Virus record (IMG/VR): IMGVR_UViG_3300009128_000090
Coordinates: 1 to 30,975 of that record
Source of the DNA: a virus
DNA length: 30,975 nt
Reading direction: 5' to 3' (one strand)
Position numbers and translations under genes: made by a program. The first letter of the stretch is position 1. Every line of letters starts with the position of its first letter. A model generated the notes under the pieces. That model was not told the DNA's origin. It saw nothing but the letters and a program-made list of their open reading frames with translations, and ran no database searches. This document shows positions 5,189 to 30,580 of the stretch, piece after piece.

Positions 5189-5407
5189 TTATTTTTTCAC
5201 AGTCTTCTTTCGTTGATGTCGCTTTTGAGATTTGGATAACTTATTTGATTTATTTTTGGTCTTTGGTTTTGGTGCTTCTTTTTTCACATCACGAACATTT
5301 TCTTTCCAAAGAGATTTTCGCACAAATTCCCATCCCTCTGAATATAGTTGTTCAGCACGACTATCTGTAACCCTCATAATTCGGTCATCCAACATCATTG
5401 TCTTCAT
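5189..5407 (-). CDS. Small basic hypothetical protein (72 aa)
   Basis: 72 residues. The N-terminal half (MKTMMLDDRIMRVTDSRAEQLYSEGWEFV) is an acidic helix of the kind seen in small phage proteins. The C-terminal ~30 residues are almost entirely Lys, Arg, Pro, Ser and Gln, as expected for a nucleic-acid-binding tail. TGGAGG lies five bases before the ATG. It is the first gene behind a conserved promoter at 5443-5472 and is followed after two bases by the methyltransferase. Function unknown. Confidence 0.75.
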   Translation of the reverse strand: MKTMMLDDRIMRVTDSRAEQLYSEGWEFVRKSLWKENVRDVKKEAPKPKTKNKSNKLSKSQKRHQRKKTVKK

Positions 5408-5442
5408 ATAACCTCCAATTTATTTTTTATCTAAACTTATAC

Positions 5443-5485: not shown

Positions 5486-6343
5486 TTATTTCAATTTATA
5501 TTTGATATTCACATCGTCATACGGTATTGATATATCAGAGTTTTCATTTACCCACATTGAGATTGTTTTCTCTGCTGATATTTCATCTATGATTGTGAAA
5601 TTATCATGGTATCGTTTTAATAATTTCTTTACCAATGGATGACGAACAATATCTTTTTCTTTGAATGAGGCTAAACCAACACCTCTAATTCCAGCAAATC
5701 GTTTAATTGCATCTTCTAAACCACTTACTTTCTTTTTCAAATCTGATTGTTCTAAATCACCTGTAATGATGTATTTACTTCTTTCACCAATACGAGTAAC
5801 AAACATCTTGATTTGTTCTGGTGTAGCATTTTGTGCTTCATCAAGTATAACAATTTTATCAGTCAAAGTAATACCTCTCATAAATGCTAACGGTATAACT
5901 AGGATAACACCATCATTCTTCAATACTTCTAAACGATTTTTACCAATGATTTGTTCCATATTGTAATAAAACGACATCATAAATGGTGCAGTCTTCTCAT
6001 CAATATCACCTGGTAAATATCCAATCTTTTCTCCATCAGCTTCTACAAGTGGTTTTACAATTACTATTCCATCAATTGAATTATCTTTCATACCCAACAT
6101 CTTCAAAGCATGATATACTGAAAGATATGTTTTACCACAACCAGCAGGTCCAATACAAAATGTAATATCTTTGGAATCGATGGTGTTGTAAAAGCGTTTT
6201 TGTGCTGGATTCTTGAACTCAATGTTCCATTCCATATTCTTCAAGTCTTTCAATACTTGCCTCTTATTTGTGTTGATGTGATTTTCTAATTGCTTTGATG
6301 TAATAACCTTTTTAGGTGTGTTGTTGTTTTTTGATTTTGACAT
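5486..6343 (-). CDS. phoH: PhoH-like ATPase
   Basis: 285 residues from the ATG at 6343, which has TGGAGG at a good distance; an in-frame ATG 15 codons upstream lacks such a site. Walker A is GPAGCGKT (residues 65-72) and Walker B is KIVILDEAQN (163-172), followed by TRIGERSKYIITGDLEQSDL, the sensor segment of the PhoH family. PhoH proteins are cytoplasmic NTPases with presumed RNA helicase-type activity and are frequent in T4-like and marine phages, where their exact role is unsettled. The C-terminal ~45 residues go beyond the usual core. The next promoter lies just downstream of its stop. Confidence 0.93.
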   Translation of the reverse strand: MSKSKNNNTPKKVITSKQLENHINTNKRQVLKDLKNMEWNIEFKNPAQKRFYNTIDSKDITFCIGPAGCGKTYLSVYHALKMLGMKDNSIDGIVIVKPLVEADGEKIGYLPGDIDEKTAPFMMSFYYNMEQIIGKNRLEVLKNDGVILVIPLAFMRGITLTDKIVILDEAQNATPEQIKMFVTRIGERSKYIITGDLEQSDLKKKVSGLEDAIKRFAGIRGVGLASFKEKDIVRHPLVKKLLKRYHDNFTIIDEISAEKTISMWVNENSDISIPYDDVNIKYKLK

Positions 6344-10241: not shown

Positions 10242-10271
10242 TGGTCATCTCCTATATGAATAAATATCTAG

Positions 10272-10344
10272 CAGGCGTAAAAAGAATCGAACTTATATTT
10301 TCTGAGTCAAAGTCAGATGTAATTAACCATTATACCATACGCCC
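10272..10344 (-). tRNA. tRNA-Gln (TTG)
   Basis: Acceptor GGGCGTA/TACGCCT, anticodon stem TCTGA/TCAGA with loop CTTTGAC, T-loop TTCGATT. It reads CAA. Last gene of the array. Confidence 0.88.
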
Positions 10345-10351
10345 ATTTAAG

Positions 10352-10424
10352 CACTCTTGATAGGATTTGAACCTATAACTTACGGTTCGTAGCCGTAGAT
10401 GATTTCCAGTTTCACTACAAGAGC
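10352..10424 (-). tRNA. tRNA-Arg (ACG)
   Basis: Acceptor GCTCTTG/CAAGAGT, anticodon stem TACGG/CCGTA with loop CTACGAA, T-loop TTCAAAT. A34 would need conversion to inosine to read all of CGU/CGC/CGA. Confidence 0.88.
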
Positions 10425-10432
10425 ATTATGAG

Positions 10433-10519
10433 AGGAAGATATGAGATTCGAACTCATGAAACTCGGTTAAGAGTTTTACTCCTTAGCAGGGAGCTGCATT
10501 TCCACTCTGCCAATCTTCC
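10433..10519 (-). tRNA. tRNA-Ser (GCT)
   Basis: Acceptor GGAAGAT/ATCTTCC, anticodon loop CTGCTAA, long variable arm as in class II tRNAs, T-arm ATGAG-TTCGAAT-CTCAT. It reads AGC/AGU. The discriminator would be T, where G is usual for Ser. Confidence 0.85.
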
Positions 10520-10523
10520 GTTG

Positions 10524-10608
10524 TGCGGATAGTAGGACTCGAACCTACACACTCATTACGAATAACAGGGTCTAAGCCTATCGTGTCTTCCAATTCCACC
10601 ATATCCGC
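10524..10608 (-). tRNA. tRNA-Leu (TAG)
   Basis: Acceptor GCGGATA/TATCCGC, anticodon loop CTTAGAC, long variable arm, discriminator A. It reads CUA and other CUN codons. Confidence 0.88.
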
Positions 10609-10613
10609 ATGTG

Positions 10614-10697
10614 TAGTCGTGGAGAGATTTGAACTCTCAAAGTCTTTAAGACTGTCAGATTTTAAGTCTGATGTGTATTCCGTTCCACCACACGACC
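10614..10697 (-). tRNA. tRNA-Leu (TAA)
   Basis: Acceptor GGTCGTG/CACGACT, anticodon loop CTTAAAA between CAGA and TCTG, long variable arm with AGTCTT/AAGACT, discriminator A. It reads UUA, a common codon here. Confidence 0.88.
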
Positions 10698-10702
10698 ATT
10701 AG

Positions 10703-10775
10703 TAGCAAGTGTCGGATTTGAACCGCTCCTCATGCTCCCAAAGCACGCGTGCTTCCAGATTACACCACACTCGCT
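10703..10775 (-). tRNA. tRNA-Pro (TGG)
   Basis: Acceptor AGCGAGT/ACTTGCT, anticodon stem CGTGC/GCATG with loop TTTGGGA, T-loop TTCAAAT. It reads CCA. The A1:T72 start is unusual for bacterial Pro tRNA. Confidence 0.82.
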
Positions 10776-10785
10776 ATATTATTTG

Positions 10786-10858
10786 TACTCCGAATAGGAT
10801 TTAAACCTATACAAACTGTTTAGAAGACAATTATGCTATTCCATTACATCATCGGAGC
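10786..10858 (-). tRNA. tRNA-Arg (TCT)
   Basis: Acceptor GCTCCGA/TCGGAGT, anticodon loop CTTCTAA, T-arm with TTTAAAT loop. It reads AGA, frequent in AT-rich phage genes. Confidence 0.87.
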
Positions 10859-10862
10859 ATTG

Positions 10863-10934
10863 TACCCAAGGAAAGAGTTGAACTTTCGTTTGACGCTTAT
10901 AAGACGCCGGTTCTTACCGTTGAACTACTTGGGC
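10863..10934 (-). tRNA. tRNA-Ile (TAT)
   Basis: Acceptor GCCCAAG/CTTGGGT, anticodon stem GGCGT/GCGTC with loop CTTATAA, discriminator A. It reads AUA directly with U34 instead of the usual lysidine-modified CAT. Confidence 0.85.
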
Positions 10935-10939
10935 AATGG

Positions 10940-11026
10940 CGGAAGATGAGGGACTCGAACCCCCAACGCCTCTCGACGACCGGTTTTCAAGACCGGAGTG
11001 GTCAGCCAATTACACTTTAATCTTCC
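10940..11026 (-). tRNA. tRNA-Ser (TGA)
   Basis: Acceptor GGAAGAT/ATCTTCC, anticodon stem CCGGT/ACCGG with loop CTTGAAA, long variable arm, discriminator G followed by an encoded CCA (10939-10937). It reads UCA. Confidence 0.9.
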
Positions 11027-11031
11027 ATCTG

Positions 11032-11104
11032 TGGCGAAGGTTGGTATCGAACCAACTACGCGAAGCTCTTCAAGCTCCCGCTCTACCATTTGAGCTACAT
11101 CGCC
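11032..11104 (-). tRNA. tRNA-Phe (GAA)
   Basis: Acceptor GGCGATG/CTTCGCC with one T:T mismatch, D-arm GCTC/GAGC, anticodon loop TTGAAGA, T-arm GTTGG/CCAAC. It reads UUU and UUC. Confidence 0.88.
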
Positions 11105-11111
11105 ATTTTTG

Positions 11112-11186
11112 TAGGGATAATTGGATTTGAACCAATGACCAATTGCTTGTAAGGCAATCACTCTGAACCAACTGAGTTATATCCCT
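11112..11186 (-). tRNA. tRNA-Val (TAC)
   Basis: Acceptor AGGGATA/TATCCCT, anticodon stem ATTGC/GCAAT with loop CTTACAA, T-arm ATTGG/CCAAT. It reads GUA. Confidence 0.9.
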
Positions 11187-11191
11187 ATTTG

Positions 11192-11264
11192 TGCTCTGTG
11201 AAAGAATTGAACTTTCTTCTGTTGTTTATCAGACAACTGTTCTACACCGTTGAACTAACAGAGC
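11192..11264 (-). tRNA. tRNA-Ile (GAT)
   Basis: Acceptor GCTCTGT/ACAGAGC, anticodon stem GTTGT/ACAAC with loop CTGATAA, discriminator A. It reads AUC and AUU. Confidence 0.9.
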
Positions 11265-11269
11265 TGTTG

Positions 11270-11341
11270 TGGGTCCACCCGAACTCGAATCGGGAACAGA
11301 GGTTTAAAAGACCACTGATTTACCGGTTAATCTATGAACCC
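11270..11341 (-). tRNA. tRNA-Lys (TTT)
   Basis: Acceptor GGGTTCA/TGGACCC with one G:T pair, anticodon loop CTTTTAA, T-arm CCCGA-TTCGAGT-TCGGG, discriminator A. It reads AAA and AAG. A related, decayed copy lies at 12278-12349. Confidence 0.88.
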
Positions 11342-11346
11342 ATTTG

Positions 11347-11417
11347 CTCACCTACTCCGATTTGAACGGAGAAGACTTGATTAACAGTCAAGCATGATAC
11401 CATTTCATCATAGGTGA
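11347..11417 (-). tRNA. tRNA-Asn (GTT)
   Basis: Acceptor TCACCTA/TAGGTGA, anticodon stem CTTGA/TCAAG with loop CTGTTAA, T-arm CTCCG/CGGAG, discriminator G. Confidence 0.9.
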
Positions 11418-11421
11418 TTTT

Positions 11422-11509
11422 GGTGCCCGACGGGACTTGAACCCGCATATGAGAATAAATCTCCCTGGGTCACATCCAGGTGCATTACCATATCATCTGC
11501 CACAGACAC
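11422..11509 (-). tRNA. tRNA-His (GTG) with an extra variable arm
   Basis: Acceptor GTGTCTG/CGGGCAC with G:T pairs, anticodon stem CCTGG/CCAGG around loop ATGTGAC, T-arm GCGGG-TTCAAGT-CCCGT, discriminator C as required for His. The variable region is 16 bases and can form GAGA/TCTC, a class II-type arm not expected in a His tRNA. The base before position 1 in the gene is T, so G-1 would have to be added after transcription. Confidence 0.75.
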
Positions 11510-11511
11510 AG

Positions 11512-11584
11512 TTGCTGATAAAAGAATCGAACTTTTAATTGTGGATTATGATTCCACCGTGATTACCTATTTCACTAATCAGCA
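11512..11584 (-). tRNA. tRNA-Met, elongator-type (CAT)
   Basis: Acceptor TGCTGAT/ATCAGCA is fully paired including 1:72, anticodon stem GTGGA/TCCAC with loop ATCATAA, T-arm AAAAG/CTTTT. The paired 1:72 argues against an initiator. A lysidine-type Ile(CAT) cannot be excluded, but Ile(TAT) already reads AUA. Confidence 0.8.
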
Positions 11585-11589
11585 ATATG

Positions 11590-11661
11590 AGCTCCATCCA
11601 GGTATCGAACCCGGTTCTTCGGCTTACAAGGCCGTTGCATCACCTTTTATGCTTATGGAGC
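11590..11661 (-). tRNA. tRNA-Thr (TGT)
   Basis: Acceptor GCTCCAT/ATGGAGC, anticodon stem CGGC/GCCG with loop CTTGTAA, T-arm CCGGG-TTCGATA-CCTGG. It reads ACA. Confidence 0.88.
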
Positions 11662-11671
11662 ATTTTGTTCG

Positions 11672-11745
11672 TGGACCTATTCAGATTTGAACTGAAATCA
11701 TCTTCATTGCAAGTGAAGTGCTTTTCCAAATTAAGCTATAAGCCC
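11672..11745 (-). tRNA. tRNA-Ala (TGC)
   Basis: Acceptor GGGCTTA/TAGGTCC with G:T pairs, including G3:T70, the alanine identity pair. Anticodon loop CTTGCAA between TTCA and TGAA, discriminator A. Confidence 0.9.
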
Positions 11746-11749
11746 AATA

Positions 11750-11780
11750 TAATGTTTTTTGGTTAACGGGAGAAACATTA
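11750..11780 (-). other. Hairpin in the tRNA-array spacer
   Basis: TAATGTTT (11750-11757) pairs with AAACATTA (11773-11780), 8 bp with a 15-base loop, between the Ala and Glu tRNAs. The stem core AATGTTT/AAACATT is the same as in the hairpin at 12032-12091. A T-rich stretch follows on the minus strand within the loop side, but there is no clean terminator tail. Confidence 0.5.
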
Positions 11781-11796
11781 TTAAAAAACTCGACAG

Positions 11797-11870
11797 TAGT
11801 CGGTAGGAGACTCGAACTCCTATCATGTGAGTGAAAGTCACATATCCTTTACCTGTTAGACGAACCGACC
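11797..11870 (-). tRNA. tRNA-Glu (TTC)
   Basis: Acceptor GGTCGGT/ACCGACT, anticodon stem TGTGA/TCACA with loop CTTTCAC, T-arm AGGAG/CTCCT, discriminator A. Confidence 0.9.
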
Positions 11871-11875
11871 ATTTG

Positions 11876-11947
11876 CGCCGGTTGAAAGATTTGAACTCTC
11901 ACGAATGGTTTTGGAGACCATCATGCTACCAATTACATCAAACCGAC
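11876..11947 (-). tRNA. tRNA-Trp (CCA)
   Basis: Acceptor GTCGGTT/AACCGGC, anticodon stem ATGGT/ACCAT with loop CTCCAAA, discriminator G typical of Trp. Anticodon CCA reads UGG only, so this gene offers no sign of UGA reassignment. Confidence 0.9.
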
Positions 11948-11952
11948 ATTTG

Positions 11953-12027
11953 CGGGATATATCAGAATCGAACTGACATCTTCTTCCGTGACAGGGAAGT
12001 GTTTTACTCCAATTAAACTAATATCCC
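11953..12027 (-). tRNA. tRNA-Asp (GTC)
   Basis: Acceptor GGGATAT/ATATCCC, anticodon stem CTTCC/GGAAG with loop CTGTCAC, T-loop TTCGATT, discriminator G. Confidence 0.9.
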
Positions 12028-12031
12028 AAAG

Positions 12032-12091
12032 TGAATGTTTTGTTGTTTAGATGTGTATCCATTACAATACCTTACTTGCGGTAAACATTCA
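12032..12091 (-). other. Second spacer hairpin in the tRNA array
   Basis: TGAATGTTT (12032-12040) pairs with AAACATTCA (12083-12091), 9 bp enclosing 42 bases, between the Asp and Tyr tRNAs. The enclosed sequence does not fold into a recognisable tRNA. The stem core equals that at 11750-11780, so both may be processing signals or remnants of one element. Confidence 0.45.
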
Positions 12092-12104
12092 GGAAAACCG
12101 ATTG

Positions 12105-12191
12105 TGCTGGTGGAGGGAATTGAACCCACTCGACCCATTTAAGGGACCGGTTTTACAGACCGGAGTGTCTTCCTTAACACTTTACACCAAC
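12105..12191 (-). tRNA. tRNA-Tyr (GTA)
   Basis: Acceptor GTTGGTG/CACCAGC, anticodon stem CCGGT/ACCGG with loop CTGTAAA, long class II variable arm (CCCTTAAATGGG), discriminator A. The T-stem has one T:T mismatch. Confidence 0.87.
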
Positions 12192-12196
12192 CAACG

Positions 12197-12271
12197 AGGG
12201 TAGTGTCAGATTTGAACTGACGGTTGTATGGATTTGCAATCCATTGTATTTGACCACTCTACCAACTACCC
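12197..12271 (-). tRNA. tRNA-Cys (GCA)
   Basis: Acceptor GGGTAGT/ACTACCC, anticodon stem ATGGA/TCCAT with loop TTGCAAA, T-arm GTCAG/CTGAC, discriminator T as in other Cys tRNAs. Confidence 0.88.
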
Positions 12272-12277
12272 ACGATG

Positions 12278-12349
12278 AGGGATGTTCGGGACTCGAACCT
12301 CGAACAGATGATTAAAAGTCACCTGATTTTCCAGTTAATCTATAGACCC
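12278..12349 (-). pseudogene. Decayed tRNA-Lys (TTT) copy
   Basis: The 5' half (GGGTCTATAGATTAACTGG) and anticodon loop CTTTTAA closely follow the Lys tRNA at 11270-11341. Only three acceptor pairs remain (GGG/CCC), and the T-stem no longer pairs in the normal register. An alternative TGTTCG/CGAACA helix can form instead. It is probably non-functional. Confidence 0.6.
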
Positions 12350-12359
12350 ATATTTTGAG

Positions 12360-12435
12360 ACCATCACATCGGATTCGAACCGATACCGCTTGGGTGGAAG
12401 CCAAGAATGCTAAAACCATTAAACACCAGTGATGG
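12360..12435 (-). tRNA. tRNA-Gly (TCC)
   Basis: Acceptor CCATCAC/GTGATGG, anticodon stem TTGG/CCAA with loop CTTCCAC, T-arm ATCGG/CCGAT, discriminator T typical of Gly. It reads GGA. Confidence 0.87.
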
Positions 12436-12479
12436 TTAACTCAAACAATTCCAACTAAACTCACAATGTCAAAAAACAA

Positions 12480-12516
12480 AAAAACCAACTCAATAAATTT
12501 CATCAAGTTGGTTTTT
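12480..12516 (-). terminator. Terminator after the 50-aa gene
   Basis: AAAAACCAACT (12480-12490) pairs perfectly with AGTTGGTTTTT (12506-12516), 15-base loop, and the minus strand continues TTTTGTTTTTTG. It would separate the 50-aa gene from the 25-gene tRNA array, which must then be read through or have its own promoter. A TTGACA at about 12472-12467 is a weak candidate. Confidence 0.8.
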
Positions 12517-12554
12517 CAAAAGATTTTTATATTTTTATATTTTATCTATCTACT

Positions 12555-12707
12555 TCACCAACTCTCCTGTTTTGGATACGCTGTTGTACCGGTAATTGAA
12601 CTATTATTATTATCAAACGAATGAACGCATTGCCATTGCTCACGACAATTATCGAGTGATAAACATCGTTTCAATCTCGGTTTTTCTATTTTAGATAAAT
12701 CAAACAT
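12555..12707 (-). CDS. Small hypothetical protein (50 aa)
   Basis: 50 residues beginning MFDLSKIEKPRLKRCLSLDN, with three Cys in the first 27 residues (CLSLDNCREQWQC) and a polar C-terminus. AAGGAA lies nine bases before the ATG, and the gene is closed by a strong terminator. It sits alone between the initiator tRNA and the rest of the tRNA array. Function unknown. The Cys pattern could bind a metal, but only three are present. Confidence 0.6.
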   Translation of the reverse strand: MFDLSKIEKPRLKRCLSLDNCREQWQCVHSFDNNNSSITGTTAYPKQESW

Positions 12708-12732
12708 TATTTTTATTTCCTTTGTTATTTAC

Positions 12733-12762
12733 TATTTCTAACTATTAATATATATAAGTCAA
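12733..12762 (-). promoter_or_regulatory. Weak member of the conserved promoter family
   Basis: Minus strand TTGACTTATATATT at 12762 matches the conserved -35 block, but the sequence at the 18-bp spacing (GAAATA) is a poor -10, and the GC before TTGACT is replaced by AA. It would drive the 50-aa gene. Confidence 0.4.
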
Positions 12763-12792
12763 TTCTGAAAAACGATCAACTTTTTTTATTTG

Positions 12793-12866
12793 TTGCGGGA
12801 GAGGGAGTCGAACCCCCGTCGGACAGCTTATGAGACTGTGCTGGAACCTCTCCAGTCCATCCCGCG
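12793..12866 (-). tRNA. Initiator tRNA-fMet (CAT)
   Basis: The acceptor starts CGCGGGA and ends TCCCGC-A-A-CA, so position 1 (C) faces A72, the mismatch that marks bacterial initiator tRNA for formylation. Anticodon loop CTCATAA, T-arm GGGGG-TTCGACT-CCCTC. The anticodon stem ACAGT/GCTGT lacks the classical three G:C pairs. It is the first tRNA behind the promoter at 12958-12987. Confidence 0.85.
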
Positions 12867-12871
12867 ATTTA

Positions 12872-12925
12872 TGGTTGGGGAAACTGATTGCCTTGGACGG
12901 AAGGTCTTATATCAGTCTCTCCCAA
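12872..12925 (-). ncRNA. CCA-ended hairpin RNA next to the initiator tRNA
   Basis: Minus strand 12925-12918 (TTGGGAGA) pairs with 12882-12875 (TTCCCCAA) with one mismatch. CTGAT/ATCAG continues the helix, and CCTT/AAGG closes a six-base loop. CCA follows the closing strand directly (12874-12872). It lies in the leader between promoter and tRNA-fMet. It has an acceptor-like stem plus CCA but no D- or T-arm, so it may be a minimal tRNA-like structure, a tRNA remnant or a leader hairpin. Confidence 0.4.
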
Positions 12926-12957
12926 ATCTATTTTCTATATCAATAATCAACTACTAT

Positions 12958-12987
12958 AATATAAGAAGCTTTTATTATATGAGTCAA
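12958..12987 (-). promoter_or_regulatory. Conserved promoter for the initiator tRNA
   Basis: Minus strand -35 TTGACT (12987-12982) in AAAAGGCTTGACTCATATAA, 18-bp spacer, -10 TATATT (12963-12958). The transcript would begin near 12951, include the CCA-ended hairpin, then tRNA-fMet. Confidence 0.75.
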
Positions 12988-13004
12988 GCCTTTTTTTATT
13001 TTTT

Positions 13005-13628
13005 TTATTTTTCATCAAGAATTTTTAGAATTTCTTTCATCCAATCTTCTTGTATTTTAGATTTTAGGTTCATTGCCCACCAACCCATACCGTTTCCTGG
13101 TGGATGTATTTCTTCACCAACATCTTCAAACATAAATGGTCTACCATTTACGAATGATGTATAAATCTTACTTGACTTACCGGGATGTCCTCCTTCAAAA
13201 TATTCTTTACTACCCATACCCAACCAATTATTTTTACAGTTGTTTGTTCCTAATAGATATGCTTTCGCTTTCTTATTTACAGAACCTTTTGGAACTATCA
13301 ATACAGAATCTTGTTCAAATATCTTTCCAAGTTTCTTCAAATCTTTTTCTAAATTACCGTTATCATCTTTATCAACAATAAAGAATGAAATTTCTTTTGA
13401 TACTTTACCACCTTCAGGATATTTACCAATCAATTTAGTTACACCATATCCCATACTTAATAAGTTACCAAGTAATTTCTTATTACGAGCTTTATTAATT
13501 TTCTTTGTATATTTCTCACCTTCACCACAATCAGCTGCTTTTCTGAATGCCGTCATTGCACCACAGTCATGCTTTTCGTTATGTGACCAAACTCTGGATA
13601 AACTCGATTCATTTATTATATTTTTCAT
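13005..13628 (-). CDS. Conserved hypothetical phage protein (207 aa)
   Basis: 207 residues with NKKLLGNLLSMGYGVTKLIGKYPEGGK (about 48-74), SFFIVDKDD and QDSVLIVPKGS (about 106-116), then KAYLLGTNN. This layout resembles the DUF3293-like proteins of marine T4-like phages, small alpha/beta proteins of unknown role; the match is from memory. There is no membrane helix or catalytic motif I can name. A site AGGAAT precedes the ATG at 13628. It is separated from the next upstream gene by 18 bases and followed by the tRNA promoter. Confidence 0.75.
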   Translation of the reverse strand: MKNIINESSLSRVWSHNEKHDCGAMTAFRKAADCGEGEKYTKKINKARNKKLLGNLLSMGYGVTKLIGKYPEGGKVSKEISFFIVDKDDNGNLEKDLKKLGKIFEQDSVLIVPKGSVNKKAKAYLLGTNNCKNNWLGMGSKEYFEGGHPGKSSKIYTSFVNGRPFMFEDVGEEIHPPGNGMGWWAMNLKSKIQEDWMKEILKILDEK

Positions 13629-18811: not shown

Positions 18812-19033
18812 TCAAGGCCTGTCATATTTCCAATGTTGAAGTGTTTTATGTTTATCAGATTTCTTATTAAACCATACAGTCTTAACAAAAGATTGCTGCG
18901 GTATTATTACCAATATCAAATCCAAAATATCATTATATGATGTGCGATATACACACTTAACAATCTCATCACCTCGAACCTCAATATCAATCAACCGACC
19001 ATCATCAGAATTGAATAACTTTGGCAAGACCAT
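18812..19033 (-). CDS. Conserved small phage protein (73 aa or longer, start uncertain)
   Basis: The frame is open from a TTG at 19123 to the TAA at 18812. The N-terminal phrase YSKHAKRASHTDRYGKMVLP looks genuinely coded, but no ATG precedes it and the promoter -10 lies at 19109-19104. The ATG at 19033 gives a safe 73-residue product; a non-ATG start nearer 19090 is likely. The C-terminal half (KCVYRTSYNDILDL, then FVKTVWFNKKSDKHKTL) resembles RelE-fold or DUF4258-like small proteins, though catalytic residues cannot be assigned. Function unknown. Confidence 0.65.
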   Translation of the reverse strand: MVLPKLFNSDDGRLIDIEVRGDEIVKCVYRTSYNDILDLILVIIPQQSFVKTVWFNKKSDKHKTLQHWKYDRP

Positions 19034-19103
19034 CTTTCCATACCTATCAGTATGAGAAGCTCGTTTAGCGTGCTTTGAATATTTTAAGTTATCATATAAT
19101 GTA

Positions 19104-19133
19104 AATATACAAAAGAATAACAATTAAAGTCAA
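19104..19133 (-). promoter_or_regulatory. Conserved promoter, TTGACT-18-TATATT
   Basis: Minus strand -35 TTGACT (19133-19128) preceded by TTTCAC instead of AAAGC, 18-bp spacer, -10 TATATT (19109-19104). It drives the small gene at 18812 and borders the gene-free palindrome region. Confidence 0.68.
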
Positions 19134-19257
19134 GTGAAACTTCTAATTTTTACCACCAAGCATATATATGACAAACGCAAAGAATTGGCCAATTGAGCCA
19201 ATAAGCCAATGGAGTAACTGAAGATTTTATGCTGTCAATGAAATAGAGCATATAGTC

Positions 19258-19284
19258 AATAATAATAATAATAATAATAATAAT
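19258..19284. repeat. (AAT)9 triplet repeat
   Basis: Nine uninterrupted AAT units, 27 bases. It lies at the left part of the gene-free region. It could melt easily, as in an unwinding element, or simply be slippage-prone. Confidence 0.85.
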
Positions 19285-20004
19285 AGTAGCGTGGTGGTGT
19301 GTGTCATTCTGTCATAAGTCCACACATATGGAAAGCAACACGCGCATGCGCGCGTAAAAAGACAATATAAGCTTATATTGCAATGATTGCAATTGATAGC
19401 AAATAGCAAATAGGATAGCAAGCAATATAAATAGCAAATAGCAATAAATGGGTGGGTGTGTGAGGAGGTTTGACTTCGTCAAGTTTTCTGAAAAAATCAT
19501 ATATCACATACATCAGACGAACATCAAAGCTGAAATTTCAGAGCTTCGAAGCTTCAAAGTTATCAGAGCTAATATGAATGTATAGAAAACTTTTAATCGT
19601 TTTTGCCATAGATGAAAAAATAAGCTCAAAATATATGCCGGGTCGACCCACTTAAAGTATCACTTTAACAGCTTGAAAAACTGTTTCAAGTTGCCACCAC
19701 CCTCTTGTAGGCCATTACTTCATTGCATCGATGCAACCAGTCATCCATCGTCGTTTCCCATCAGGACCATAGTCAAGTATCATCCGTCTATTGCACCGTC
19801 GAGGATTGCCTATTTTTCAGAAGCGTGGAACACACTCTATTGGCTTATTGGCTTCATTGGGTTTTCAAAATTTGGTCTATATCAGCACAGTTGATTGGAG
19901 GAGCCTATATGATATAGAATTTTTATATTTCAGAATTTCACATAGATTGGGATGACAAGATTATTACACCTTCAATTTGTTATGTTCTATATGGCCCCGG
20001 AGTG

Positions 20005-20136
20005 TGACATTTTGTCATTGGTGGTGGTCTATATCAAAATGATATATTTGGTTGGGAAATGGTATGACATTTTGTCATTTTGTTCAATCACAGTTTTGGC
20101 AAATTTGATGCACTTGTTGGGTATGACATATTGTCA
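20005..20136. promoter_or_regulatory. Three regularly spaced TGACA-N3-TGTCA operators
   Basis: TGACATTTTGTCA at 20005-20017, ATGACATTTTGTCAT at 20064-20078 (core 20065-20077), TGACATATTGTCA at 20124-20136. Starts of the cores are 60 and 59 bases apart. The second and third are both preceded by TTGGG and GGTATG- or GGTATG-like bases. Symmetry and spacing suggest cooperative binding of a dimeric protein. The same half-site forms the array at 9684-9752. Confidence 0.6.
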
Positions 20137-20320
20137 CACTCATTGCCTTGTATAAATCGACTGCTATGTGTTCTATTGGGTTGTATTTCAGAGTTCTCGA
20201 CGAGCTTGCTGGTGGTATGGTGTCTTGGATTTGGTTACCATATCAAGGAGTTATTAACATTTTTCGATTTTACTATACATAATGTCCATTATCAGTATAA
20301 GCCGTCAAAATAGTCCAAAA

Positions 20321-20347
20321 AAAGCTTGACTTATATCGCCAAGCTTT
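20321..20347 (-). terminator. Terminator of the coiled-coil membrane gene, overlapping a plus-strand promoter
   Basis: AAAGCTTG (20321-20328) and CAAGCTTT (20340-20347) form a perfect 8-bp stem with an 11-base loop. On the minus strand a run of seven T follows (from 20324 leftwards to 20317). It ends transcripts of the gene at 20388-20648. Confidence 0.7.
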
Positions 20348-20355
20348 CGTAAATT
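20326..20355 (+). promoter_or_regulatory. Only plus-strand copy of the conserved promoter
   Basis: Plus strand TTGACT (20326-20331) in AAAAAAAGCTTGACTTATAT, 18-bp spacer, -10 TAAATT (20350-20355). It points into the antisense of the gene at 20388-20648 and towards the broken plus-strand frame at 20769. It overlaps the minus-strand terminator stem. Confidence 0.55.
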
Positions 20356-20387
20356 ATACGATACGCCCTACTTAAAAAATTGACATC

Positions 20388-20648
20388 TTAGAACACCAAT
20401 GCTATTGTTGATACTATAATTGCAGCAATCGATGTTTTCAGTAGGTAGGATGTGAATCGTTGGGAGTCTATTCTGAATTTAGTGTTTTCGTATATATAAT
20501 GTTTCAGGCCTTGTGCTTCTATATTATTCAAATCTTCAAGAGAACCGTAGATGCCATCTTTAATAAGGTCGACTGTTTTATTTACTTTGTCGAGTGTTAT
20601 TTCTACTGTTTTAAGTCGTGTATTAAGTTGTTCATTTGTTGTTGCCAA
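20388..20648 (-). CDS. Coiled-coil protein with C-terminal membrane helix, XhlA-like
   Basis: 86 residues starting at a TTG with GGGAG seven bases upstream. The first ~35 residues form a heptad coiled coil (LNTRLKTVEITLDKVNKTVD), and the last ~18 (KTSIAAIIVSTIALVF) a membrane helix. This order and length match XhlA-type hemolysin/holin-associated proteins and other phage membrane coiled coils; sequence alone does not separate them. It lies alone, with a terminator 40 bases downstream and AT-rich DNA upstream that contains a tandem GGTGTGTTAT repeat (20671-20690). Confidence 0.65.
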   Translation of the reverse strand: MATTNEQLNTRLKTVEITLDKVNKTVDLIKDGIYGSLEDLNNIEAQGLKHYIYENTKFRIDSQRFTSYLLKTSIAAIIVSTIALVF

Positions 20649-21865: not shown

Positions 21866-21908
21866 GCCCTTTTTTAATAAGCCGAAGATGCCCTACTTTG
21901 TATTCCAT
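21855..21908 (-). pseudogene. Truncated copy of the 38-aa gene at 26133
   Basis: ATG at 21908 gives MEYKVGHLRLIKKGLDS and then TAG inside the promoter spacer. The first 14 residues equal those of the overlapping gene at 26133-26249, after which the duplication ends. It is probably an inert by-product of the duplication. Confidence 0.45.
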
Positions 21909-22182
21909 CATAATCATCACTTGCCCATTCATCATAATCATCAACATCTTCATTGGTTAATAGATGAAAATACTTTCTTAATTCTTCTGCAATCTCACAG
22001 AGCTCATCAACATCTTCCCAATCACTAATAGTGCAATCATTGTTAATACTACCCAACATTCCACCACCGAGATAGTTTTGGTATGCCGTCATCTTCACAC
22101 CATCCCAACCAAGTGATGTTAAATCAATCTCAATTCCACCACCACGACGCGAGTATTCACACCGTAAAGTTATATCTTCAAA
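21866..22182. repeat. Duplicated segment, left copy
   Basis: 317 bases that recur at 26207-26499 with four substitutions and one 24-base deletion there. The deletion lies between short CATAATCATCA repeats, as expected for slippage. The copy includes most of one coding sequence and the start of a second, overlapping one. Confidence 0.92.
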
Positions 22183-22233
22183 GTTTATATTTTTATTATT
22201 CATTTTGTTAAGTTCATTTATGTTTATGTTCAT
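21874..22233 (-). CDS. Hypothetical protein, left paralogue (119 aa)
   Basis: 119 residues. After a private 17-residue Asn-rich start (MNININELNKMNNKNIN) comes FEDITLRCEYSRRGGGIEID and an acidic, aromatic body ending SRASSAY. From FEDI onward it equals the protein at 26215 except for three residues and an eight-residue insert (EWASDDYD or a shifted equivalent). No motif known. The Gly-rich YLGGGMLGSIN and the SRRGGG stretch suggest a small beta domain. The start overlaps the upstream stop as ATGA. Confidence 0.75.
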   Translation of the reverse strand: MNININELNKMNNKNINFEDITLRCEYSRRGGGIEIDLTSLGWDGVKMTAYQNYLGGGMLGSINNDCTISDWEDVDELCEIAEELRKYFHLLTNEDVDDYDEWASDDYDGIQSRASSAY

Positions 22234-26136: not shown

Positions 26137-26249
26137 ACCTTTTTCATCCTCTTTAAATACTTTTTAACAGTAGGTTTACCTACTTCATTAGAATTCCAAA
26201 CTTCTTGCCCTTTTTTAATAAGCCGAAGATGCCCTACTTTGTATTCCAT
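26133..26249 (-). CDS. Small basic protein overlapping the duplicated gene (38 aa)
   Basis: 38 residues: MEYKVGHLRLIKKGQEVWNS, then EVGKPTVKKYLKRMKKV. It starts inside the 3' end of the gene at 26215 in another frame and stops in an ATGA overlap with the 31-aa gene, which argues that it is real. The Shine-Dalgarno match is weak. Basic and possibly nucleic-acid-binding. Its first 14 codons recur, cut off, at 21855-21908. Confidence 0.45.
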   Translation of the reverse strand: MEYKVGHLRLIKKGQEVWNSNEVGKPTVKKYLKRMKKV

Positions 26250-26499
26250 CATAATCATCAACATCTTCATTGGTTAATAGATGAAAATACTTTCTTAAAT
26301 CTTCTGCAATCTCACAGAGCTCATCAACATCTTCCCAATCACTAATAGTGCAATCATTGTTAATACTACCCAACATTCCACCACCTAGATAGTTTTGGTA
26401 TGCCGTCATCTTCACACCGTCCCAACCAAGTAATGTTAAATCAATCTCAATTCCACCACCACGACGCGAGTATTCACACCGTAAAGTTATATCTTCAAA
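26207..26499. repeat. Duplicated segment, right copy
   Basis: 293 bases matching 21866-22182 with four substitutions and a 24-base deletion. Here the overlapping small gene runs on past the repeat boundary, so this locus is more likely the source and the left one the derived copy. Confidence 0.92.
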
Positions 26500-26526
26500 T
26501 ACTTTTTCTTCTTTAGTTCTTAGCAC
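26215..26526 (-). CDS. Hypothetical protein, right paralogue (103 aa)
   Basis: 103 residues starting at a GTG (26526) with AGAGG upstream, inside the last codons of the 58-aa gene. After a private MLRTKEEKV start the sequence FEDITLRCEYSRRGGGIEID and onward equals the left paralogue at 21874, with three substitutions and eight residues fewer near the C-terminus. The strong conservation with only four base changes shows a recent duplication. Function unknown. Confidence 0.75.
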   Translation of the reverse strand: MLRTKEEKVFEDITLRCEYSRRGGGIEIDLTLLGWDGVKMTAYQNYLGGGMLGSINNDCTISDWEDVDELCEIAEDLRKYFHLLTNEDVDDYDGIQSRASSAY

Positions 26527-26768: not shown

Positions 26769-27347
26769 CTAATTAAACCATTTAATCTCGGGGTTACCTT
26801 GAAAACCTTTAACCCAAACAAACCAAGCATAGGCTACTGCTCCAGCAGAATTTGTAAATTCACCATTAAAAGCACAACCAATTCTTTTACTTGTAACATA
26901 AACAGTACGAGGGGGGTATTTATCAAATAATTCTCTTCTTCCTCGACTCTCAAGAAATTGTAATTTCAGAAACATTGCAACTTTAGCATCAGGACGAATA
27001 ATCTTTAAGGAATGTTCTACAAATTCTTTAGCGTACCTGTAGGGGGGATTAGTAATAATGTCACCCGACCAATGTTCATAATCAAAGAAATCCATTACTA
27101 ATCCATAGCCTCGGTCAATAACATCACTACTGACAACATGTTTAGAATGTTGTTTGAATACTTCACTCAAGTGACCTTCACCACATGCAGGTTCAAGGAT
27201 ATTTTGAAAATCCTCTAATTCCATTAAAAACTTACCTGCTATAGGGTCGGTTGCATAATAATCATTTTGTTCACGCTCATGTTTACTATGGTTACTTGCT
27301 CCTAATGTAGTATAAGTAGATTTCTTATTTCCAGTCCAGTCTTTCAT
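26769..27347 (-). CDS. Adenine-N6 DNA methyltransferase-like protein (192 aa)
   Basis: 192 residues from the ATG at 27347, which has AAGGAG six bases upstream; the frame runs further up only through the tRNA gene. EPACGEGHL (52-60) is the SAM-binding motif I and TNPPYRYA (99-106) the catalytic NPPY motif. The lead-in REQNDYYATDPIAG (25-38) is typical of phage adenine methyltransferases. It is short, close to the catalytic core alone. It could modify DNA or, less likely, RNA. It follows a single initiator-like tRNA gene. Confidence 0.87.
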   Translation of the reverse strand: MKDWTGNKKSTYTTLGASNHSKHEREQNDYYATDPIAGKFLMELEDFQNILEPACGEGHLSEVFKQHSKHVVSSDVIDRGYGLVMDFFDYEHWSGDIITNPPYRYAKEFVEHSLKIIRPDAKVAMFLKLQFLESRGRRELFDKYPPRTVYVTSKRIGCAFNGEFTNSAGAVAYAWFVWVKGFQGNPEIKWFN

Positions 27348-27359
27348 TCTTTCTCCTTG

Positions 27360-27430
27360 TAGCGGGGGCGGGATTTGAACCCGCGTCTCCAGGGCATGAA
27401 CCTGACAAGGAACCCCTCCTCTACCCCGCA
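27360..27430 (-). tRNA. Initiator-like tRNA (CAT)
   Basis: GCGGGG (27429-27424) pairs with CCCCGC (27367-27362). Positions 1 and 72 would both be T, an unpaired end as in initiators. GTCAGG-TTCATGC-CCTGGAG and T-arm GCGGG-TTCAAAT-CCCGC align well with bacterial tRNA-fMet, though the anticodon stem has AGG/CCT instead of GGG/CCC and the loop is TTCATGC. It stands alone, 14.5 kb from the other initiator. Confidence 0.72.
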
Positions 27431-27437
27431 TATCTCA

Positions 27438-28115: not shown

Positions 28116-28359
28116 TTAAACTAACATCTATATTATCCCAGATTAAACTTAATAACCATTCGCTCTCAATTCGAGTATAATTATCCCTCGAAGTATCTTC
28201 AATTTTATACCTGTGTTTGCCATTTTGATGGTAGATGGTTCTACTTATTTTTAAACCTTTCCAAAAATAAGATAACCACTCACCCTTATCAAAAGCAGGT
28301 GCTTTTCTCTTTGATACCCATTCATATATATTTACTTTTAATTCCCTACTTAATTTCAT
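28102..28359 (-). CDS. Hypothetical protein (85 aa)
   Basis: 85 residues: MKLSRELKVNIYEWVSKRKA, basic and Trp-rich (EWLSYFWKGL, SEWLLSLIWD), ending TEQQ encoded by the intergenic repeat. No motif known. The start overlaps the reductase stop as ATGA, so it is translated with it. Its position beside the reductase hints at a linked role, but nothing in the sequence shows one. Confidence 0.7.
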   Translation of the reverse strand: MKLSRELKVNIYEWVSKRKAPAFDKGEWLSYFWKGLKISRTIYHQNGKHRYKIEDTSRDNYTRIESEWLLSLIWDNIDVSLTEQQ

Positions 28360-30350
28360 TTAATTTCCTCTAATTCAACTTTCAATTCACAACTATCGCC
28401 ACTACAGAATTTTTCAATTACTGCTTCACTACCTTTTACTTTCCTAAAAGAAAGATGACTTAAACCATTCAATCTTTTATTGTACTCCTCCTCAGTAATT
28501 TCTTCATAGGGCATTTGAGGGAAAGCTCCCAATTCTAATTTAGGAAGGAAACTAATTCCCTTTAATTGATATTGGAAATAATTTAAAGCATGTACTATAT
28601 CTTTACCCTCTTTTTCGGGGTCAAAAGTAACAGTACAGCTTACTTGATTATCCGCCCAATATTTTTGCATGAAAGCAGCCAAACTTATTTGCTCCCACAT
28701 AGAGGCTTCATTTAAAGTACGTATACCTTCGCCAACATCTACCGGTGTCTCAATTACTACAGTAGAATTCTCACTACCAATAGCCGGTTCAATAGGATAA
28801 CCTGCTTTTCTTAGGGGTTCTATTAAAGGTGAATTTATTGATAACCTAATTCGCCTAATATAAAACCTTGATTCAGGATAATGTAATCCTGGAGTAGCAC
28901 CAGCCAATAGTGAAACTGTCCCTGAAGGTTTAACACTTGAAAGTTTAATACTTCTTGGTATTGCCAACCAATCAGAATACATCTTATCCCAATGTCCTAA
29001 TGTTTTATATCCAGCAGTCAACCACTCCCTTAATGTATGTAAGCCTGCACTATTTATAAATTGTGCAATACCACTAACTGAACAACCTATCCTCCTATTT
29101 CTCAATAATACTCTATTTGTTTCGGGCCAATGAGTCTTTCCTAATGTTACTGTTTTAGCATAGAGGTAAGCGTATTTTAAGGTCCTTAAATAATCCTCTA
29201 AGTTTTCATGGTTATTAGGAAAAGTCTCAACTAAACAACATAATTCGTAAGATTCGAGGCTCTGTTCAAGACAAGGGTTACCCCCTTCAACTCGATGATC
29301 TTTTTTATCTTTACCATTTTTCATTTGAGAATAATTTTTCATATTATCCAACCAAGCAATGCCCGGTTCCCCATTATCAATTATCCTATCAACAACATTG
29401 GTGTAATCCATACCTAGTTCAGCAAAAATGGAATTATTTGAAGTCCAACCATACTGAGCACGATGGGGATTCTCCTGATAGTTTTTAAGGTTAATATATT
29501 CTTCATCAAAAGGATCGCCAAAAACAATTTCCGCAGTTCTACGGACATTACCTGCAACGACACATTTACCAATTAGATTCATAATATCTACGATAGTAGT
29601 AACCGAGATTGGTTCACCCAGATTTTGATTCAATACCTCTCTAATTCCCTCATGTACTTCTTTTAAAGGCTCATAACCACTAGAAACTCCTCCAAAGCCT
29701 TGTATGGGTTCCCCCGCAGCTCTAATTTCATCATAATCAAAAAGGATCTCAGCCGTACCGTGAAAATAACTTTCCAACAATAATTTTACTGAATCTACCC
29801 AACCTTCTCTTGTATCGGGTATGGTGAATAATTCAACAGTTCTTGAAGGGTTAGGTTCCTTAATAATAAGTTTTCCAGCACCTTTAACATCAAACCCAAC
29901 ACCAACCCCTAACATTGAAGCATCCATTAAAAAACAAAAGGGTTTCGCATAATCTTCACTAAGATTTTTAGTAGAAACAAAAGCACAATTATTCAATGTA
30001 GCGAACAATTTCTTTTCTTCCGTTAATAATGTACCCATTGCCCAAAGACCCCTACCTGGGGGTAAAAATTTCATATTGAATATACGATCATACATTTCTT
30101 GTGCTGAATTTTGAGCCTGCCAAGCATTCCAACCTAACTCATAATTTTCAATATGCTTCTTTTGCATATTGTAAGTACCTTCAACTACTCGTCGACAAGT
30201 TTCCCACCACATTTCATTTTTACCATCATCTTTAATACGAGAATAAGTTCGCATATATACCAATTCTCCAAGACCATTGAACCCAAATGGGGGTTTCTTT
30301 CTCTTATATTTTTCTAAGAAATTATTAGATAACTTAAAAGGTTTACTCAT
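28356..30350 (-). CDS. nrdJ: Class II ribonucleoside-triphosphate reductase, adenosylcobalamin-dependent, monomeric
   Basis: 664 residues from the ATG at 30350, which has AGGAGG four bases upstream. It converts ribonucleotides to deoxyribonucleotides using adenosylcobalamin. Motifs in order: FLPPGRGLWAMG (95-106), NNCAFVST (120-127, first active-site Cys122), NPCLEQ (358-363, radical Cys360 with Asn358 and Glu362), CCLVETFP (371-378), PSGTVSLLAG, and a C-terminal CSGDSC pair (649 and 654) for reduction by thioredoxin. This matches the Lactobacillus-type monomeric enzyme in plan, slightly shorter (that one is about 740). It needs host cobalamin. Small genes overlap on both sides. Confidence 0.95.
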   Translation of the reverse strand: MSKPFKLSNNFLEKYKRKKPPFGFNGLGELVYMRTYSRIKDDGKNEMWWETCRRVVEGTYNMQKKHIENYELGWNAWQAQNSAQEMYDRIFNMKFLPPGRGLWAMGTLLTEEKKLFATLNNCAFVSTKNLSEDYAKPFCFLMDASMLGVGVGFDVKGAGKLIIKEPNPSRTVELFTIPDTREGWVDSVKLLLESYFHGTAEILFDYDEIRAAGEPIQGFGGVSSGYEPLKEVHEGIREVLNQNLGEPISVTTIVDIMNLIGKCVVAGNVRRTAEIVFGDPFDEEYINLKNYQENPHRAQYGWTSNNSIFAELGMDYTNVVDRIIDNGEPGIAWLDNMKNYSQMKNGKDKKDHRVEGGNPCLEQSLESYELCCLVETFPNNHENLEDYLRTLKYAYLYAKTVTLGKTHWPETNRVLLRNRRIGCSVSGIAQFINSAGLHTLREWLTAGYKTLGHWDKMYSDWLAIPRSIKLSSVKPSGTVSLLAGATPGLHYPESRFYIRRIRLSINSPLIEPLRKAGYPIEPAIGSENSTVVIETPVDVGEGIRTLNEASMWEQISLAAFMQKYWADNQVSCTVTFDPEKEGKDIVHALNYFQYQLKGISFLPKLELGAFPQMPYEEITEEEYNKRLNGLSHLSFRKVKGSEAVIEKFCSGDSCELKVELEEIK

Positions 30351-30580
30351 TTTTCCTCCTCTAATTCCCAAGTTTCTTTACAATCAGAATTTCCAATAGG
30401 TTGTTCTTCTAATTGTCTTAACCCTAATGGGTTACCTTTTTCATTACAAAGATTATTCTCAATTATATCAATTCTTGGCATAATAAATTTTGCCATTTGT
30501 TTTTTCACTTCTTCCGCTTTTTCTTGAGAAGTAAAAGATTTAGCAAATGCTAATCCTGCAACCACCGTGTATATTTTCAT
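30347..30580 (-). CDS. Hypothetical protein (77 aa)
   Basis: 77 residues: MKIYTVVAGLAFAKSFTSQE, then a charged helix (AEEVKKQMAKFIM) and an acidic end (ETWELEEEK). The start MKIYTVV-AKSFTSQEKAEE is like the small beta-alpha proteins common in phages that begin with a short strand and a helix. Two Cys only. GGAAGGAAA precedes the ATG. Its stop overlaps the reductase start (ATGA), so it may modulate reductase translation; function unknown. Confidence 0.7.
   Translation of the reverse strand: MKIYTVVAGLAFAKSFTSQEKAEEVKKQMAKFIMPRIDIIENNLCNEKGNPLGLRQLEEQPIGNSDCKETWELEEEK

Follow-up and report, generated by a model that had tools for sequence, protein, structure and literature searches.

Introduction

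Multi-operator control regions of phages bring several dimer-type operators and outward promoters together in one intergenic region. To our knowledge, few large phages have a known origin or master control site, and in most metagenomic phage genomes no such site is annotated. In T4, oriE, oriF and oriG are located near switches in transcription direction, and the minimal oriF and oriG are ~100 bp long and contain a promoter (PMC3016281). A single conserved non-coding element of alphabaculoviruses, the CNE, was shown to be essential (PMC3989284).

Here we analyze a linear IMG/VR virus record of 30,975 bases, referred to as the window, which contains a gene-free region rich in palindromes. The region holds a conserved DNA element of ~105 bp that is shared with other phage contigs, resembles each of these systems in some respects, and may function in replication or in transcriptional control.

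Results

Extent and composition of the gene-free region

All well-supported genes of the window are encoded on the minus strand, including those on both sides of the gene-free region (Table 1). A preliminary description of this DNA had correctly recognized a gene-free stretch, whose true limits make it slightly longer than had been given. It had also been called the only long one, which holds insofar as it is the longest, unless a 2.7-kb tRNA cluster (10242–13004) is counted as well. Two chance ORFs tested within the region had no Pfam match, the region itself had no Rfam match, and a similarity search of the whole region against phages found none. With a GC content of 0.36, compared to 0.32 for the remainder of the window, the region is slightly GC-richer. 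The (AAT)9 run noted earlier is present, falls within the lowest 0.35% of 40-bp GC windows, and is the sole unusually AT-rich stretch of the region. No relatives of either flanking ORF were found in viral_contigs. The distance between the PNKP-phosphatase gene and the VWA gene is 2.6 kb in the window versus 250–640 bp in relatives.

Table 1 Coordinates of the features in and around the gene-free region of the window.
Feature	Position	Strand	Details
ORF, phrog_24108 family	18812–19123	−	Lacks ~40 N-terminal residues of the family profile
Weak predicted phage-class promoter	19097–19145	−	12.9 bits; fires left, in the direction of the 18812 ORF and VWA
Gene-free region	19124–20387		1.26 kb, between the 18812–19123 and 20388–20648 ORFs (from the ORF list)
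Perfect palindrome AATTGGCCAATT	19183–19194		12 bases
Inverted repeat, left arm	19189–19215	+	GCCAAT units, 27 nt
(AAT)9 run	~19258–19285		Lowest 40-bp GC in the region, 10%
Perfect palindrome CGCGCATGCGCG	19341–19352		12 bases
Perfect palindrome CAATATAAGCTTATATTG	19363–19380		18 bases; absent from viral_contigs in an exact search
ATAGCAA repeats	19396–19444	+	n = 5; 0.24 expected
Perfect palindrome CTGAAATTTCAG	19530–19541		12 bases
Perfect palindrome AGCTTCGAAGCT	19542–19553		12 bases
Conserved ~105-bp DNA element	about 19590–19700	−	Box 1 CTTGAAACAGTTTTTC, variable middle, box 2 TTTTTTC-N3-TATGG
Spacer-3 dyad TTAAAGT-ATC-ACTTTAA	19652–19668		Within the conserved element
Perfect palindrome TTGCATCGATGCAA	19723–19736		14 bases; just upstream of the conserved element
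Inverted repeat, right arm	19834–19860	−	89% complementary to 19189–19215; 618 nt between arms
Three exact TGACA-N3-TGTCA sites	20005–20136		Starts at 20005, 20065 and 20124, ~60 bp apart
Spacer-3 dyad TATATCA-AAA-TGATATA	20030–20046		
Strong predicted phage-class promoter	20315–20365	+	39.2 bits; fires right, antisense to the 20388–20648 gene
86-aa gene	20388–20648	−	Weakly XhlA/hemolysin-like (phrog_1193, E = 1.9e-4); hydrophobic C-terminal segment

Several other features of the window and its relatives were recorded. The tRNA cluster comprises 26 tRNA genes (10271–12866) that cover nearly all amino acids, and positions 13005–13628 encode an S-adenosylmethionine lyase family protein (PF23780), likely a counter-defence enzyme. 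Two nearly identical genes at 21874–22233 and 26215–26526 (FEDITLRCEYSRRGGGIEIDL...) point to a recent duplication or recombination. A lone tRNA-Met (27359–27430) overlaps the first codons of a methyltransferase-like ORF (26769–27431), so the start of this ORF was probably misplaced by the mechanical ORF call. The best known-phage match of the ribonucleotide reductase (28356–30371) is Actinomycetia phage DSL-LC01 (48%); contigs L021 and L022 encode this enzyme at 79% identity yet the VWA gene at only 47%, suggesting mosaic exchange. Upstream of the VWA gene, L006 (1108–1240) and L012 (9712–9840) share a non-coding block (GGTTGCG..CCTCAATAT, ACAACGGACAAGGCTT, GCGAGTGGTTGACCA), which had no Rfam match at the gathering threshold and looks like a candidate structured RNA.

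Palindromes and repeats

The one 18-base, one 14-base and four 12-base palindromes reported in the preliminary description all exist. Palindromes of at least 12 bases numbered 6 between positions 19170 and 19770, compared to 0.21 expected, and none of 2000 dinucleotide shuffles reached this count. Across the 31-kb window there are 10 such palindromes, six of which lie within 2% of its length (19183–19736) and four elsewhere. The chance rate assumed earlier for a 12-base palindrome, once per 4,000 positions, was too low, as the local rate is nearer 1 per 2,300. Chance is disfavoured as the source of the cluster.

Dyads were in excess at a spacer of 0 (6 versus 0.53 expected) and at a spacer of 3 (3 versus 0.39 expected, p = 0.004), and occurred at chance level at the other spacers from 1 to 12. 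The RNA fold z-scores were near 0 for both strands of the region. Because the excess is confined to these two spacers and RNA folding is unremarkable, the palindromes look like candidate sites for dimeric proteins that bind at the DNA level rather than RNA hairpins. Most dyads of the region are unlike each other in sequence. TGACA-N3-TGTCA, found three times where 0.002 copies were expected in shuffles, occurs nowhere else in the window. The ACTTAAAGTATYACTTTAA motif is symmetric and by itself occurs in 78 contigs, most of which look unrelated to this phage.

None of 200 shuffles contained an inverted repeat as good as the 27-nt one composed of GCCAAT units. The ATAGCAA iterons proposed earlier are present in five copies, but their spacing is irregular (7, 12, 16, 7). 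The TGACA-N3-TGTCA sites, the inverted repeat, the outward promoters and the conserved element had all been missed.

A conserved ~105-bp element in eleven contigs

The element was discovered by tracing the TTAAAGT-N3-ACTTTAA dyad, which lies in the variable middle of the window's copy, into relatives, where it proved to be part of a longer minus-strand similarity extending from position 19700 to ~19590. A profile built from the first three members detected the element in further contigs bearing VWA and MoxR genes. An IMG/VR pattern scan in which nothing but the two boxes and their approximate distance was specified yielded two more contigs, L272 and L287. In both, the element is again located after a MoxR gene, which had been no part of the scan pattern. 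With held-out nhmmer profiles, the window was recovered at E = 3.4e-10 in 3.6 Mb, and nine of the ten other contigs at E ≤ 5e-8, the match in L010 being weak (0.0027). No other place in these 3.6 Mb scored below E = 1 with the element profile, and the element is single-copy in each of the eleven contigs (the window and ten others), including the 169-kb G001.

In the eleven-way alignment the element reads CTTGA-n-a-n-GGTTTTTC, a variable middle, then CATACATTT, ATTTTT and CTATAG. The T-boxes are spaced by 61–63 bp in the ten relatives and by 60–61 bp in the window, while the middle varies. The end of the element resembles a −10 sequence (TATAGT, TATAAT, TATAAG) with no phage-class −35, and in several members the element terminates in a T-run. 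RNAalifold detected neither consensus pairs nor covariation in the alignment, and the element had no Rfam match. An exact-pattern search of a bacterial and archaeal genome collection found no copy, and a host-derived element was rejected on these grounds. A literature search, partial in coverage, found no paper on the element, which judging from these searches is previously unrecognised. In L272, a perfect DnaA-box sequence (TTATCCACA) is located just after the element (~5880–5895).

In eight contigs (L005/G009, L007, L010/G008, L011, L098, L272, L287 and G001) the element comes just after the MoxR gene, usually past the MoxR terminator, and ahead of the following gene. The other three copies, those of the window, L015 and L057, are located in longer gene-free regions. 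The element is wholly gene-sense in the window; in L015 it faces a convergent gene, and no gene follows it in its direction. Since its position relative to genes is not fixed and no gene lies downstream in L015, the element is not simply the promoter of one gene. Strong tandem repeats directly adjoin it in two contigs, downstream in G009 (19 bp × 3.4; L005 1689–1800) and upstream in L287 (23 bp × 4.6; 5293–5415). Over all relatives, repeats near the element were mildly enriched (11 versus 6 expected, P = 0.04). They differ between relatives or are absent, and evenly spaced direct repeats kept in relatives, as would mark an iteron origin, were not found.

Around the element, L015 and L057 showed a weak palindrome excess (p about 0.02) and the other relatives none. 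The palindrome array is thus particular to this phage, and what the lineage has in common is the element. Over 650 kb of relatives, palindromes other than AT-only ones occurred at 0.17–0.28 per 700 bp and never clustered in groups of more than four. What looked like clusters in L005 and G001 turned out to be (TA)n or mostly coding. Conservation of the palindromes was therefore rejected, as no relative has a comparable non-AT cluster and the 18-mer is absent from viral_contigs. In L006 and L010, dyads related to TTAAAGT-N3-ACTTTAA precede the VWA gene, and in L015 one recurs ~140 bp from the element. The preliminary description had held that a lack of enrichment over shuffled sequence, or related phages with coding sequence across the equivalent region, would speak against the palindrome cluster. 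The enrichment over shuffles is strong and no coding equivalent was found in relatives, so neither was the case.

Predicted promoters at the ends of the region

Promoters of the phage class (AAAAAAGCTTGACTT...TTCGTATATTATAGTGTAA) were predicted using a position-weight matrix trained on 15 sites from relatives and none from the window. All 39 sites scored in four relatives (G001, 8; G003, 7; G008, 10; G009, 14) were gene-sense, a count that includes the 15 training sites, which had been picked from the gene-sense set. The window contains nine sites, eight of them gene-sense, and its plus-strand site at 20325 is the only antisense copy among the 48 promoters scored. Local shuffles of the window yielded 0.3 hits each on average, the highest scoring 12.9 bits. 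The score of the left promoter (19134, minus strand) equals this top value; its TTGACT and TATATT are 18 bp apart. The region thus appears to be bounded by outward-firing predicted promoters, convincing on the right side and less so on the left. Both the outward promoters and the dense palindromes are specific to the window. Transcription from the right promoter would produce RNA antisense to the XhlA-like 86-aa gene.

Discussion

Because of the spacer pattern of its dyads, the lack of an RNA fold, the conserved DNA element and the outward promoters, a role of the region in cis as a DNA site of phage control is well supported at the sequence level. The earlier suggestions were a replication origin, a site for partition or packaging, and an operator set. 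A cis-acting DNA site of some kind agrees with our data, but the choice among these options is not settled, packaging is disfavoured, nothing points to partition, and the palindromes themselves are not conserved.

The single most likely role of the region is, tentatively and at less than even probability, that of a replication origin, which we consider somewhat more likely than a purely transcriptional operator array. The single copy of the element, its mobility relative to genes, its fixed box spacing, and a size and placement like those of T4 origins were counted for an origin, together with the repeats adjoining the element in G009 and L287 and the outward promoters in the window. Against an origin we counted the absence of a skew turn, the slightly raised GC content of the region and its lack of an AT-rich island beyond (AAT)9, the modest repeat enrichment, and the restriction of outward promoters and dense palindromes to the window. 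The GC-skew check proposed in the preliminary description lent no support, as neither GC nor AT skew at fourfold sites turned at the element in G001, G008 or G009, which is a weak test given co-oriented genes and incomplete contigs. DnaB helicase and DNA polymerases of the A, B and III-alpha families were not detected in the relatives searched, so that no replication gene could be linked to the element.

If the region is an origin, a phage or host protein would bind the two T-boxes, which would lie on about the same helix face at a distance of six turns, and the variable middle between them would be looped or bridged. Opening of the DNA, or transcription from the TATAG-like end or the outward promoters, could then provide a replication primer in a manner similar to T4 oriF. 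The palindromes and repeats of this phage might be accessory sites at which host or phage regulators set the timing.

Nearly as much would be accounted for by a region devoted to transcription only, with palindromes as operators of several dimeric regulators and the element, with its T-boxes and TATAG −10-like hexamer, as a complex promoter or enhancer of an early transcript, without a role in replication. We regard this as a serious possibility of distinctly less than even probability. An excess only at spacers 0 and 3 is typical of dimer operators, these dyads lie near phage-class promoters, which are found at both ends of the region, and TTAAAGT-type dyads adjoin promoter-like sequences in L006, L010, L092 and L112. 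The −10-like end of the element also fits, and in L010 a gene with a ribosome site comes directly after the element, with no other promoter seen between them. However, six dyads unlike in sequence would require many regulators, a separate promoter-like sequence follows the element in L007, L011 and L098, and in L015 there is no gene to drive. A more specific proposal is that an uncultured phage lineage uses the element, with its T-boxes six helical turns apart, variable middle and TATAG end, as its replication origin or as a master control site, unlike any described phage origin, and that this phage has surrounded it with an unusually dense dyad array; we consider this less likely than not.

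The enlarged gap between the PNKP-phosphatase and VWA genes, the missing N-terminus of the 18812 ORF, the lack of relatives of both flanking ORFs in viral_contigs and the slightly different GC content would also be expected if foreign or recombined DNA had inserted here and were decaying, with the 18812 gene truncated and the palindromes incidental. This is improbable, as the region carries the conserved element and the promoter class of the lineage, the palindrome excess is far above chance, and decay would not preserve perfect dyads. A pac, cos or att site, serving packaging or recombination, could be single-copy, conserved and non-coding, but is highly improbable: the terminase of G001 is at 120.6 kb and the element at 29.9 kb, ~90 kb apart, the element is situated within a packed operon after MoxR in most relatives, and no integrase was recognised nearby. 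Least plausible of all is a structured non-coding RNA or riboswitch. Sequence conservation outside genes and the terminal T-run of several members would suit such an RNA, whereas the absence of RNAalifold consensus pairs, the fold z-scores near 0 on both strands and the lack of an Rfam match argue against it.

A single-copy, non-coding element that a profile can detect in eleven contigs is a concrete and testable candidate for an origin or master control site, and its rigid box spacing around a variable middle predicts a specific protein–DNA architecture.

Comparison with known systems

Like multi-operator phage control regions, the window combines several dimer-type dyads with outward promoters, as read from its sequence; unlike in those regions, the dyads mostly differ in sequence and no repressor gene was recognised alongside. 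Direct and semi-palindromic repeats in a non-coding region are shared with T4 oriE and PLE-type iteron origins (PMC3016281, PMC8263062), but here the repeats vary between relatives, their spacing is irregular, and no RepA-like initiator was identified. T4 oriF and oriG consist of a promoter and an unwinding element and are primed by an R-loop (PMC3016281). The element differs from them in having no recognised MotA-type box or sequence relationship, and the window shows no clear AT-rich unwinding stretch immediately past it, (AAT)9 following ~300 bp downstream. It resembles them as a single non-coding element of ~100 bp with a −10-like end that, in the window, is located near a switch in transcription direction. 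The alphabaculovirus CNE (PMC3989284) belongs to unrelated viruses and is longer (~155 bp versus ~105 bp), but, like the element described here, it is non-coding, conserved and single, and its conserved clusters keep a fixed spacing.
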